Shown in pieces: positions 7,929-30,117 of a stretch of 38,915 bases of DNA; position 1 is the stretch's first letter; each line of letters opens with the position of its first letter. Both the position numbers and the translations under genes were made by a program. The notes under the pieces are model-generated. The model was not told the DNA's origin, searched no databases, and was given only the letters and a program-made list of their open reading frames with translations. This DNA comes from Flavobacteriia bacterium (GTDB lineage Bacteria; Bacteroidota; Bacteroidia; Flavobacteriales_D; Crocinitomicaceae): the NCBI GenBank assembly GCA_947446925.1, contig CANFHU010000026.1, forward strand, positions 1 to 38,915. The letters are read 5' to 3'.

Positions 7929-7999
7929 ATGATTTAATGAATCAATTGATTAATGTGAAAATGTAACAATGTATTAATTTGAAAATGCACGAAAATGAT
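7928..7999. repeat. Degenerate 24-bp tandem repeat, three units
   Basis: Three imperfect units start at 7928, 7952 and 7976. Units two and three begin AATGTGAAAATG and AATTTGAAAATG and end in TATT or GATT. They fill the space between the rbfA promoter and the ATPase stop. Function unknown. Confidence 0.5.
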
Positions 8000-9318
8000 T
8001 AATTATCTAATTTTATGTCTTCAATGGACAACCCTTTGTATTCAACAGAATAATCTGGACGTTGTGCTACTAATTTTTCAGCTTTACGTTTGAGTTGTTC
8101 TACATTTATTTTCTTTGGATTCATTTTAACCTCTACAAAAACCATTCTTTTTTCTAAATCATTTACTGCAACAATATCAATTTCATTCAGATTACCACGT
8201 TCCCAATATCGACCAACCTGATTGAAATTTTGATTTTTAAATTCATTTAAAAAATAGCGTTCTAGTATTGAATCTGCGTATACGGAATATTCATTTTCTA
8301 CGATCGTCTTAACATAGTTCAAATTTCCAATTTCGATTGCTGCTCGTTGTTTATAGAAATAACGAAACCAAAAATTCAAAAAGTTATCTTTGATAAAGTA
8401 TTTTACCAATCTTCCTCCATCCTTTGCAAAAATTGGTTTTACTTTCTCAATAATATTGTACACATTTTCCAAACGATCTAAATAGCCTCCAACTTCTCGT
8501 TCTAAAATGGATTCGATTTCAGGTCTTGCTGTTTTAGAACTAGCAATTAACGATAATATGGAAAAATAGGTGCCATACTCTTTTCCAAATTCTTCAATCA
8601 ATGCATTTTTACCCTCTTCTAAAAAATAGGAGTTGGCTGACAACATCGTTGATAACATCGTATCTTTTGTAAACGCCTTTTCTTGCACAAACATTTCTAC
8701 ATATTTTGCAACTCCACCTGTGTACATGTAAAAGCTTAATAAATCCTCAGCAACGTAATTTGATACATTATCGCGATAAATTTCTTTCAATGTTTTTACA
8801 GTAAACGGCTCTAAGCGTATCATATTTGTCGCGCGACCAAAAAGAGGTTCTTTCGCGTTTTCAAATATTTTATACATCATACTAAAAATGGAACCACAGA
8901 CAATAAAATTTAATTTACTTTCATTTTTATTAAGGTCCCAAATTCGTTGAATATCACTCATAATCGAAGGATTGATATTTTGAAATTCCTGAAATTCATC
9001 GATAATCAAAGTGAAATTCATTTTTTTGGAACGATACATCAAAAATTCAAACAGATGTGAAAACTGTGAAAATGAACCATAGATTTTCTCCTCCATTTTA
9101 CGTTCTATTTCTTCTTTAAAATCTAAACATAAAATTTGTTCATTTTTTCGTGATACAAAAAAGTATAAGAACACTGTATCCGAAACTGATTTTAACAACA
9201 AACTAGTTTTACCAATACGTCTTCTTCCCACGACATAAGTAAACTGCGCATTGCTTTTCGACTTCTCTACAATCGCATTTAATTTTGCTAACTCGTTTTC
9301 TCTATTATAGAATTTCAT
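7999..9318 (-). CDS. AAA ATPase with C-terminal DUF234 / PD-(D/E)XK-like domain
   Basis: A 439-residue protein of the archaeal-type ATPase family (PF01637 plus DUF234). Walker A GRRRIGKTS 31-39; Walker B FTLIIDEFQ 102-110 (D107, E108); sensor-1-like FIVCGS 138-143; a middle helical region; then a C-terminal nuclease-like core with NEIDIVAV 378-385 (D381) and FVEVK 394-398 (E396, K398). The E-x-D and E-x-K residues of PD-(D/E)XK folds are intact, so DNA binding or cleavage is possible. The cellular role of this family is not established. I chose the ATG at 9318, not the upstream ATG at 9366: the family N-terminus MKFYNRENEL begins there, and the -7 box (9345-9338) lies between the two. Upstream is a 15-bp-period palindrome array. 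Confidence 0.85.
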   Translation of the reverse strand: MKFYNRENELAKLNAIVEKSKSNAQFTYVVGRRRIGKTSLLLKSVSDTVFLYFFVSRKNEQILCLDFKEEIERKMEEKIYGSFSQFSHLFEFLMYRSKKMNFTLIIDEFQEFQNINPSIMSDIQRIWDLNKNESKLNFIVCGSIFSMMYKIFENAKEPLFGRATNMIRLEPFTVKTLKEIYRDNVSNYVAEDLLSFYMYTGGVAKYVEMFVQEKAFTKDTMLSTMLSANSYFLEEGKNALIEEFGKEYGTYFSILSLIASSKTARPEIESILEREVGGYLDRLENVYNIIEKVKPIFAKDGGRLVKYFIKDNFLNFWFRYFYKQRAAIEIGNLNYVKTIVENEYSVYADSILERYFLNEFKNQNFNQVGRYWERGNLNEIDIVAVNDLEKRMVFVEVKMNPKKINVEQLKRKAEKLVAQRPDYSVEYKGLSIEDIKLDN

Positions 9319-9337
9319 GACTTTACACTTTATAGCA

Positions 9338-9345
9338 CAAAGATA
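9338..9345 (-). promoter_or_regulatory. -7 box of the DUF234-type ATPase gene
   Basis: TATCTTTG on minus, 19 nt before the ATG at 9318. The expected -33 TTTG is absent; that area is occupied by the ATTAC-N-GTAAT repeats, so expression may depend on a protein bound there. Confidence 0.6.
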
Positions 9346-9349
9346 TGAA

Positions 9350-9405
9350 ATTATCGTAATATCCATTACCGTAATGCAAATTACAGTAATTTGAATTACG
9401 ATAAT
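9350..9405. repeat. Four 11-bp inverted repeats ATTAC-N-GTAAT at exact 15-bp period
   Basis: ATTATCGTAAT at 9350-9360, ATTACCGTAAT at 9365-9375, ATTACAGTAAT at 9380-9390 and ATTACGATAAT at 9395-9405. The two central copies are perfect palindromes about the central base; the outer copies have one changed position each. Spacers are all 4 nt but differ in sequence (ATCC, GCAA, TTGA), which argues for selection on the palindromes over simple tandem duplication. The array covers the -33 area of the ATPase promoter and ends at the TauE-like stop codon. Confidence 0.85.
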
Positions 9406-10205
9406 TATTTAAATAATTCTGAGACTAAAATTGAAATTCCCATGCATAAAATAAACAATCCAAAAAATGGCTTTAACTTTTCTCCTGGAATTTTTGTATT
9501 CATACGAATCCCCATCATAATCCCAATAATAGCGATTATAGAGAAAATAGACATATGCATCCAATCAATTCGCTGAAGACCATCGTGATCGACCGTAAAA
9601 CCAATTAACGAATTAATAGTAATAATTACTAAAGAAGTAGCAACAGCAGTTTTAACCGGTAATTTTGCCCAATTGGTTAAAACAGGAATAATTAAAAATC
9701 CTCCACCAACACCAATAATCCCGGTAATAAATCCTACTAGTAAACCTGCAATAATAATTTGAATACGATTAATTGTAAAATCAATACTAGTAGATTCAAG
9801 TGATTTATTTTTTATCATTGAAAAAGAAGCAAACAACATCATCACAGCAAAAAGTACTAATAATAGTGTATTTTTAGTAAGAGAAAAAGTAGCGGTTGAA
9901 AAAATAGTTTGTGGTATAAGTTGTAAAAAATATGTACGACTAACAACTTCCGAGAATATGGAAGAAAGTCCAAATAAGAGCACAAATTTCCAAGAAATAT
10001 TACCAAGTTTATAGTGTTTGTAGGAACCAATTAAACTAGTAAATCCAACGATAAACAAAGAATATGTAGTTGCTAGTACCGTATCTAAACCAAAAAGATA
10101 TACCATAATTGGTACAGTCATAGTAGAACCACCTGCACCTATTAAGCCAAGGGTTACTCCCATGAAAAGTGACAAAAAGTAACCAAAAAAATGCGCTAAA
10201 TCCAC
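9405..10205 (-). CDS. TauE/SafE-family membrane permease (putative sulfite/anion exporter)
   Basis: A 266-residue integral membrane protein with about eight helices in two related halves. Each half carries a glycine-rich signature: GLIGAGGSTMTVPIMVYLFG near residue 20 and GFITGIIGVGGGFLIIP near 158. Family members export sulfite, sulfoacetate or other small anions; the substrate cannot be read from sequence. It is the last gene of the aspartate aminotransferase to porT operon, 10 nt after porT, and its stop abuts the palindrome array of the ATPase gene. Confidence 0.88.
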   Translation of the reverse strand: MDLAHFFGYFLSLFMGVTLGLIGAGGSTMTVPIMVYLFGLDTVLATTYSLFIVGFTSLIGSYKHYKLGNISWKFVLLFGLSSIFSEVVSRTYFLQLIPQTIFSTATFSLTKNTLLLVLFAVMMLFASFSMIKNKSLESTSIDFTINRIQIIIAGLLVGFITGIIGVGGGFLIIPVLTNWAKLPVKTAVATSLVIITINSLIGFTVDHDGLQRIDWMHMSIFSIIAIIGIMMGIRMNTKIPGEKLKPFFGLFILCMGISILVSELFK

Positions 10206-28820: not shown

Positions 28821-30056
28821 TCATAAAACACTGTTTTCCAACAACCAAATAAAAACATTTTTATGTATAATTCCGTTTCTATCTTGTGTAAAGGAATCAG
28901 TAGTCAATAAAAATTTGGGATAGTTATCGTTTATTTTCTCTAAAGCACTAAATTCTCTATTAATAGTAGATTCCGAAGATAATTGCCAAGCAACTTGGTA
29001 GTATTCAATTTCCCCAGTAGGTGTTTTACAAACAAAGTCAACTTCAGAATTCCTAGAAGTTCCGGTCCAAATTTTATTTCCTCTGCGTAAAAGTTCTAAA
29101 AAAACAATATTTTCAAGAATATGCCCTCGATCGGTAGTTCTTACTTTTCCAACCAACAAATTCATCAAACCACAATCTACTAAGTAATACTTTTCTTGCG
29201 TAGCTAATTGTTTTTTACCTTTTAAATCAAAACGATTCACTTTATAAAAGACAAAACTAGCTACTAAATACTCTAAATATTTTTCAACAGTAGCATGATG
29301 TATTGTTTGTCCATCTAATTTTAAGACGGAAGAAATATTGCTTGGAGAAAGTGGACTTCCGATATTGTTTGCTACAAATTTAGCCATGTTCGCAAATGCA
29401 CGTTTATCATTTATTTGATGGCGTTGGGTAATATCTTTTTCAATAATGGTTGTATAAATTGCATCTAGGTACTCTATAATTTTATCAAAACCACCTTCTC
29501 GTAATTCCACCCCTTTTGGCAAAGAAGTTTCCTTTACATAATCAAAAAATAAGACTTCAAAATTTAGGTATTTATTGTCTGTATCTATTTTTCTTGCTGT
29601 TAAATATTCTTTGAATGAAAAAGGTAAGATTGAAATTTCAATATACCTACCACTCAATAGTGTCGCCAATTCGCTACTCAATAAGAAAGCATTTGAACCA
29701 GTAATATATACATCTGTATTTTCACTCACAAAAAGTCCATCCACTAATTTCTCAAACTGAGGTATGTTTTGTATCTCATCCAAAAAAATATAATTTGGTT
29801 GATCCTTAGTAAGTTTCTCTTTTATTTCAAAATAGATATCTGACCAAGATTTATCCAAATAATTTTCTGGTAATTCAAAATTATAAAATTGGATTTGTTG
29901 ATTGGAAATTCCTTTTTCTACTAATTGTTCTCGGTAAATTTCTAACAAGGTACTTTTACCCGAACGACGTAAACCACTCACGACTTTAATTAGGTCCTTA
30001 TCTTTGTAAGCAAGCAATTTAGTTAGGTATTCTTTACGAAGTGTATAATCACGCAT
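28821..30056 (-). CDS. AAA ATPase (AAA_14) with DUF4143 domain, flanked by identical palindromes
   Basis: A 411-residue protein. It has an N-terminal ATPase with Walker A GLRRSGKST 28-36, Walker B YIFLDE 89-94 (D93, E94), sensor-1-like VYITGSNA 116-123 and LSGRYIEI 134-141 with a candidate arginine finger R137. A helical winged-helix-like middle follows (SPSNISSVLKLDGQTIHHATVEKYL), then the C-terminal DUF4143 nuclease-like fold with SEVDFV 337-342 (D340) and YYQVAW 352-357. The catalytic E-x-K position is Q-x-A, so nuclease activity is doubtful. Function of the family is not established; some members sit in toxin-like or mobile contexts. TATGTTTG ends 4 nt before the ATG. Identical 44-bp palindromes lie 17 nt upstream of the start and directly after the stop. 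Confidence 0.88.
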   Translation of the reverse strand: MRDYTLRKEYLTKLLAYKDKDLIKVVSGLRRSGKSTLLEIYREQLVEKGISNQQIQFYNFELPENYLDKSWSDIYFEIKEKLTKDQPNYIFLDEIQNIPQFEKLVDGLFVSENTDVYITGSNAFLLSSELATLLSGRYIEISILPFSFKEYLTARKIDTDNKYLNFEVLFFDYVKETSLPKGVELREGGFDKIIEYLDAIYTTIIEKDITQRHQINDKRAFANMAKFVANNIGSPLSPSNISSVLKLDGQTIHHATVEKYLEYLVASFVFYKVNRFDLKGKKQLATQEKYYLVDCGLMNLLVGKVRTTDRGHILENIVFLELLRRGNKIWTGTSRNSEVDFVCKTPTGEIEYYQVAWQLSSESTINREFSALEKINDNYPKFLLTTDSFTQDRNGIIHKNVFIWLLENSVL

Positions 30057-30068: not shown

Positions 30069-30073
30069 TTAAT

Positions 30074-30117
30074 AAATTATCAAAACTTGTAAAATTTGCA
30101 AGTTTTGATAATTTAAA
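30074..30117. repeat. 44-bp palindromic direct repeat, copy 2 (5' side of the ATPase gene)
   Basis: Identical to copy 1, same orientation. Arms at 30074-30089 and 30099-30114. Beyond the repeat, 15 of the next 22 bases (30118-30139) also match the bases after copy 1 (28821-28842), which are the 3' end of the ATPase gene. Confidence 0.95.

Follow-up and report, generated by a model that had tools for sequence, protein, structure and literature searches.

A promoter array of palindromes with a 15-bp period is a probable self-operator of a DUF234-type ATPase gene

Upstream of an ATPase gene in a 38,915-nt stretch of contig CANFHU010000026.1 from a Flavobacteriia bacterium (the whole stretch is referred to below as the window), four short palindromes follow one another at a step of 15 bp. 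We concluded that this array is probably a self-operator, to which the ATPase would bind through its winged helices as a row of dimers spaced by 15 bp, repressing its own gene. The array is linked to the gene, is placed at the promoter, keeps its 15-bp period in many branches despite changes of the palindromic word, and is absent elsewhere in the genomes searched.

The features of the locus are compiled in Table 1. The step between unit starts is exact across all four units and the 4-nt spacers all differ (atcc, gcaa and ttga on the forward strand), just as the first-pass annotation had described. It had also taken all four units for ATTAC-N-GTAAT palindromes, which is correct for the inner two, both containing the exact ATTACNGTAAT, but not for the outer two, which are imperfect with one mismatch each. 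These outer units mirror each other, so that the whole array forms one larger palindrome. In coding orientation, the order is ATTATCGTAAT tcaa ATTACTGTAAT ttgc ATTACGGTAAT ggat ATTACGATAAT ttca TATCTTTG, followed by 19 nt and the ATG at 9318. The array is bounded by the stop codon of a TauE-like gene (9405–9407) and the ATPase start codon (ATG, 9318–9316), and base 9405 is common to the last unit and the stop codon. We call TATCTTTG a promoter box on the basis of TAnnTTTG, which we take to be the Bacteroidota −7 consensus. In the window the array lies upstream of this box at a distance of 4 bp, which places the usual −33 region within the array; the earlier suggestion that the array replaces the −33 element was thus borne out. 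The longest reading frame of the ATPase gene opens at an ATG within the array (9366; window 9318–9366), and automatic annotation may therefore extend such ATPases into their own operator.

Table 1. Coordinates of the array, the promoter box and the ATPase gene in the window.
Feature	Position	Strand	Basis
Four-unit palindrome array, proposed self-operator, 15-bp period	9350..9405	.	
Outer unit ATTATCGTAAT, ATPase-proximal	9350..9360	.	
Inner unit ATTACCGTAAT	9365..9375	.	
Inner unit ATTACAGTAAT	9380..9390	.	
Outer unit ATTACGATAAT, mirror of first unit	9395..9405	.	
TATCTTTG, presumed Bacteroidota −7 type promoter box	9338..9345	-	sequence; consensus from general knowledge
ATPase_2 + DUF234 protein, 439 aa, PADLOC PDC-S27 match, proposed binder and target	7999..9318	-	
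Presumed Walker A codons, GRRRIGKT, residues 31–38	9205..9228	-	
Predicted winged-helix domain, about residues 248–310	8389..8577	-	AlphaFold2 model, helices and strands read by eye
Predicted recognition helix, residues 277–286 (GGYLDRLENV)	8461..8490	-	model
DUF234 domain, conserved E379, D381, E396 and K398, PD-(D/E)XK-like	8116..8370	-	

The encoded protein is COG1672-like, with matches to Pfam ATPase_2 (68.3 bits, cut-off 33.2) and DUF234 (49.1 bits, cut-off 22.5), and its gene is flanked by the TauE-like gene on one side and by rbfA on the other. The motif GRRRIGKT presumably represents Walker A. In an alignment of 47 sequences, the putative nuclease residues E379, D381 and K398 are invariant and E396 is nearly so. 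The AlphaFold2 model had a mean pLDDT of 90.9, and a winged helix was read in it between the ATPase and DUF234 domains. The top Foldseek matches were the archaeal ATPases 2fna (TM-score 0.53) and 2qen (0.56), of which 2fna was also matched by sequence; Cdc6/Orc1 DNA-binding proteins came next with low TM-scores of 0.33–0.39. Residues 2–420 matched the PADLOC profile PDC-S27 (E = 3.5e-46), which would assign the protein to a candidate defence family. PMC12988326 characterizes PDC-S27 as the fusion of an ATPase domain with a PD-(D/E)XK member and gives 3503 and 4562 detected systems; these ATPases are common in archaea and bacteria.

At E 1e-20 or better, the gene was present in 13 of the 240 genomes of the family that were searched. 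The upstream DNA of all 13 family loci was read: eleven (L006–L016) carry an array of the window motif, L017 (47% identity) has other words at the same 15-bp step, and no nameable array was found in the upstream DNA of L018 (28% identity). Three other carriers in the genus keep the four-unit array while the surrounding sequence differs; in the congener G034 (L009/L021), the outermost step is 14 bp, not 15. In other genera there are three units, TTAT-N-GCAAT n4 RTTAC-N-GTAAT n4 ATTGC-N-ATAA or close to it, located downstream of a TAnnTTTG box. A wide survey of one genome per species (84,980 species) yielded at least 579 relatives. The best 80 of these were kept and belong, by record titles, to Bacteroidota, Campylobacterota and a few other groups; 79 of them (52–91% identity, readable start) were scored, and L022, the same locus as L197, was left out, as the start of its gene lies beyond the contig end. 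Scored against the 28 positions of a model with three units at a 15-bp step, the roughly 200 bp of upstream DNA gave at least 23 matches at all 79 loci: 27 loci matched all 28, two matched 24 and two matched 23, and the best of 1580 shuffles reached 22. Spacers vary across these loci while the words are kept. At L105, the array is situated further out, at about −271 to −233.

Because the model was drawn from the same 79 loci, we also examined new loci, obtained by searching 395 genomes from the class; four with readable upstream DNA were outside the 79 and had not come up before. L195 scored 25 and L198 scored 23, the latter with a lag-15 z of 2.8 (rank 1 of 38) in the test described below. 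L199 scored 21 of 28 and has a perfect large palindrome, and the distant relative L200 scored 18, which is chance level. L194 is identical to L088 and was not counted as new. The first-pass annotation had named relatives that keep the gene and lose the array as evidence against its reading; such relatives were not seen, and close relatives with the gene keep the array.

Single units are unremarkable in the window (46 matches with up to two mismatches, 39.5 expected). The genome-wide search proposed at first pass returned the phased pair ATTANNNTAAT-N4-ATTANNNTAAT at this array and nowhere else in the 3.15-Mb genome, and a reversed control gave no match. The inner pattern without mismatch was then searched in 392 genomes of the phylum, and occurred in the window genome and once in a long coding sequence of G513, a match that was set aside as chance. 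The carriers G432 and G476 in this sample were missed by the pattern since their words differ. With one mismatch allowed, the pattern was present in 48 of 50 genomes taken from the 80 carriers, in each of the 48 within 230 bp upstream of an ATPase, and all 30 match loci that were fetched lie 5–91 bp before an ATPase start. It occupies exactly one place in 42 of the 50 genomes; there are two, which overlap within a four-unit array, in G630 and G631, more than one in G642, G662, G667 and G671, and none in G672 and G677. The extra places precede further ATPase paralogues in G662 and G667 and fall within the upstream region of one ATPase in G671 and G642. When the pattern was reversed as a control, 7 matches were obtained, distributed over 6 of the 50 genomes. 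In G642 (L038, 2097–3978), a single ATPase gene is preceded by five separate arrays, about 16 units in all, over about 1.9 kb of DNA that contains no reading frame reaching 80 aa.

Tandem spacing as such would also arise in a plain minisatellite or by chance. This explanation was rejected, and we assign it a negligible probability: the array is unique in its genome, neither near-identical whole repeats nor occurrences at unrelated loci were found in the genomes searched apart from the one coding-sequence match, the words are kept among variable spacers in the 79 loci, and the score was unreached by shuffles while control promoters lack the 15-bp lag (see below). A terminal repeat of a mobile unit was rejected as well, as 42 of the 50 carrier genomes have a single array place and no second copy at the other end of the unit.

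More divergent homologues, among them those of archaea, Fusobacteria, Vibrio and Bacteroides, revealed that the period is kept at 15 bp while the word changes in many branches. Relatives on plasmids (103 of 72,556 plasmid records at E 1e-20) often carry other words at the same step at 27–50% identity. Words at a 15-bp step are TTACTGTAA and TTACAGTAA in Vibrio, TTATAATAA and TTATCATAA in Arcobacter, ATTATTATAAT twice in Cetobacterium, GTTTCGGAAACAGCC then ATTTCGGAAAC in Bacteroides finegoldii, AATTATCATAATTAT then AATTATCATTAT in Methanocaldococcus jannaschii, and GTATAATACTCTCGA then GTATAATC in Rhodothermus. We further performed a motif-free lag test, in which the best 18-bp self-match in 150 bp of upstream DNA at lags of 8 to 45 bp was compared with shuffles. 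Lag 15 was the top lag in the 79 close loci (mean z 2.39, 51 above 2; next lag 0.40) and in 43 divergent loci (mean z 1.47, 17 above 2; next lag 0.39). For nine loci fetched after the idea had been formed, the mean z at lag 15 was 1.63 (next lag 0.62), with values above 2 in Haloferax (L185), Haladaptatus (L187), Halomontanus (L189) and Natronococcus (L190), with the words GAAATCTGGATTTCC, GAAATCTAGATTTCG and GAAACTTGGATTGCC; L186 reached 1.5 and L188 1.9, and L191, L192 and L193 were negative. Eighty control promoters of other genes gave a mean z of 0.05 at lag 15, with four above 2.

Ten loci had been left out of the 43 divergent ones (L100, whose start is unclear, L108, L109, L117, L127, L128, L133, L136, L141 and L144). 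Tested later, four of them (L117, L133, L141 and L144) had z above 2 and six did not; L133, L141 and L144 are copies or near copies of L106, L140 and L143. The upstream DNA of L111 is the same as that of L150, and both loci belong to the 43. In a phylogenetic tree of 59 proteins, loci with the 15-bp lag are located on both sides of the deepest split. The label is only weakly clustered on this tree, as low a value being reached by 25 of 500 shuffles; one reason is that the detector puts several visible arrays, e.g. L031, L148 and L186, below threshold. Lag 15 ranked first of 38 in 21 of 44 rows outside the close clade, some of these rows being near relatives. The question raised at first pass, whether other DUF234 ATPase genes have family-specific arrays of fixed period, was answered positively for all 79 close loci and for many, but not all, distant ones.

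Branches in which the lag test detected no 15-bp signal are the L122-type branch, L018/L191/L192 and L107/L110/L113. In the L122-type branch, the place of the 15-bp array is taken by inverted repeats with long spacing, TTTGGCCA or similar in sequence, which surround the −7 box. L005, L119, L120, L122–L128 and L130–L132 belong to this long-repeat branch, and many of the proteins start with MSxxNISGR. The second DUF234 ATPase copy of the window genome (G000) is also a member of this branch, with long-spaced inverted repeats AGCCAAAAC/TTTGGCT at its promoter.

Palindromic promoter sites would fit any dimeric regulator, and the ATPase gene might be controlled by an unlinked host transcription factor with the array as its operator. 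One TTAC-type word is shared by three paralogues of G667, which favours such a factor and counts against a word that follows the protein. However, TTACNGTAA is common to Bacteroidota, Campylobacterota and a 36%-identical Vibrio plasmid protein; the same word thus accompanies the ATPase clade across phyla, was found nowhere else in the 392 genomes except for the one coding-sequence match, and left no unexplained matches in the 50 carrier genomes. Moreover, paralogues in one genome can differ in word, as in the window genome and in G476. The latter has two copies with TTAAGATAA-type words and a third (L201) with a TTTCGCTGCTGCGAAA palindrome at the promoter, where the lag test gave no support for a 15-bp step (z 0.6). 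A global host regulator was rejected on the absence of the pattern elsewhere in the 392 and 50 genomes and on the differing words of the G476 paralogues, and we consider control by an unlinked host factor to be quite unlikely. Other words also occur on Bacteroides plasmids, and one of the homologues has TTTCGGAAA instead of TTACNGTAA. Gene neighbours vary among the loci whose neighbourhoods were viewed. Also in G476 (L154, contig C2, 318000–328500), two near-identical ATPase copies are separated by about 4.8 kb and differ little in their upstream DNA and array; the reading frames between them, named by eye, are small toxin-antitoxin-like and Fic-like ones.

In these comparisons the word follows the protein and not the host, which supports well the first-pass proposal of the ATPase itself as candidate binder. 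From this pattern and the predicted winged helix we infer that the ATPase would bind its own array through that domain. Since a palindromic row with a 15-bp step has two-fold axes 7.5 bp apart, one dimer per 15 bp would be the simplest reading. A rule by which a single acidic residue of the recognition helix reads the C of TTAC fitted L017 and L135 (T, with TTTC words). It was dropped because five loci break it: in L026, L036, L052, L068 and L089, D/E is replaced by N, S or K and the word is unchanged.

Placement relative to the promoter was counted in the 61 of the 79 loci that are outside Campylobacterota. The array starts 0–6 bp after TAnnTTTG in 36 loci, overlaps the box in one, and is upstream of it in seven; no exact TAnnTTTG box was found near the array in 17. 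A site at the gene's own promoter that is conserved with the gene, as found here, is characteristic of an autoregulatory operator. Since RNA polymerase would be blocked whether the array covers the −33 region or the start point, repression is likelier than activation.

In the same 36 loci the array is part of the leader, which would also suit a function as RNA, either as a terminator of the upstream TauE gene or as a hairpin in the ATPase mRNA leader. A strong hairpin is predicted, both for the window (z −6.5) and for three others (z −4.2 to −5.9). Covariation links mirror positions (4-34, 6-32 and 11-27), and Watson-Crick spacer pairs number 107 of 280 compared to about 81 expected (four spacer pairs in 70 of the 79 arrays). 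Yet the other 173 spacer pairs are not Watson-Crick, the array is upstream of the −7 box in the window and seven of the 61 other loci, the 1-nt centre of each unit cannot serve as a hairpin loop, and a fixed period with a changing word is not needed by an RNA. Covariation analysis yielded a dyad of the whole array. A consensus scan for sigma-70 promoters and terminators found no terminator but was uninformative, and a known RNA family was rejected, the best Rfam match having 20.8 bits compared to a gathering score of 100. We regard a role as RNA as improbable.

The congener G029 (L203/L219; genome 92% complete) retains a four-unit array, nearly intact and flanked by the same genes, TauE and rbfA, but no ATPase gene was found there. 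G031 (L204) has a decayed array remnant, and G032 (L205) has none. This picture fits gene loss with later decay, but also gene-independent use of the array or an assembly fault. An array without the gene is in line with a cis site that acts outside transcription, i.e. an iteron, partition or recombination site of the ATPase-nuclease, or a self-mark, as are the ATPase and nuclease-like domains of the protein, the five arrays in front of the L038 gene, and the 103 plasmid records with relatives, two of which are beside ParA or ParM genes. Against this, the array is in register with the −7 box in the 36 loci mentioned, and 42 of the 50 carrier genomes have a single array rather than a pair flanking the gene. 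The iteron-like array suggested at first pass found no support at the window locus, where the neighbours are TauE-like and rbfA and no replication or partition gene adjoins. Such a site has, in our estimate, a small probability.

We therefore favour the self-operator, at which oligomer formation, repression and a release signal would act as follows. The winged-helix domains would bind the half-sites as dimers in a row, and contacts between protein subunits would fix the dimer spacing at exactly 15 bp. The assembly would then cover the promoter and repress the ATPase gene. Release might occur by the ATP state or when the ATPase-nuclease engages elsewhere, e.g. with invading DNA, which is a guess. 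A broader rule is possible, and we put it forward tentatively as something that may well not hold: in archaea and bacteria, proteins of the PDC-S27 kind would bind their own promoters with one dimer per 15 bp, the word being free and the step frozen, which would give each copy a private address, and in the row an immune ATPase-nuclease would be at rest until engagement with foreign DNA releases it. With the arrays, each ATPase has a predicted DNA ligand, which opens its binding, oligomer size, ATP dependence and regulation to direct tests. A 15-bp step that stays frozen under a changing word would constitute a geometric constraint on the oligomer that can be used for modelling, and the arrays can be used for pairing specificity residues with DNA words.

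A second ATPase gene of the window, of the AAA_14/DUF4143 type (28821–30056, PADLOC PDC-S01), has a large promoter palindrome, TAAATTATCAAAACTTGCAAA-T-TTTACAAGTTTTGATAATTTA, at 30073–30115. Among its homologues, 15 of the 22 read (of 47 places) had promoter palindromes with arms of at least 14 pairs, given here as a raw count. Members of one clade have similar palindromes, and those of separate clades differ. Both ATPase families, DUF234 and AAA_14/DUF4143, may generally have self-operators.

In the open-access literature searched, we found no report of promoter arrays for DUF234/COG1672 ATPases and no proven function for PDC-S27-type ATPases. The window protein matches the model of the PDC-S27 candidate single-gene defence ATPases (PADLOC), and the passages of PMC12988326 consulted on them do not mention promoter arrays. 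Self-operators are of a known kind; new, as far as the open-access search shows, are the link to this ATPase family, an effector-like protein as self-regulator, and a step conserved between archaea and bacteria despite the change of word. The best structural matches, the archaeal AAA+ ATPases SSO1545 (2fna) and PABY2304 (2qen), have no operator that we know of. The Orc1/Cdc6 initiators matched in Foldseek (1fnn and 2qby, TM-scores 0.34–0.39) are AAA+ ATPases with a winged helix that binds repeated DNA boxes at replication origins; to our knowledge, they have no DUF234 domain and their origin boxes form no fixed 15-bp row. In toxin-antitoxin and defence autorepressors, an operator covers the promoter and the binder is encoded by the controlled gene. 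In contrast to those, the effector-like ATPase-nuclease would itself be the repressor here, and there is no separate antitoxin or regulator gene. DnaA is an ATP-binding oligomer that binds boxes in its own promoter and has many boxes in the genome, whereas the arrays described here were found, in the carrier genomes searched, only upstream of these ATPases.
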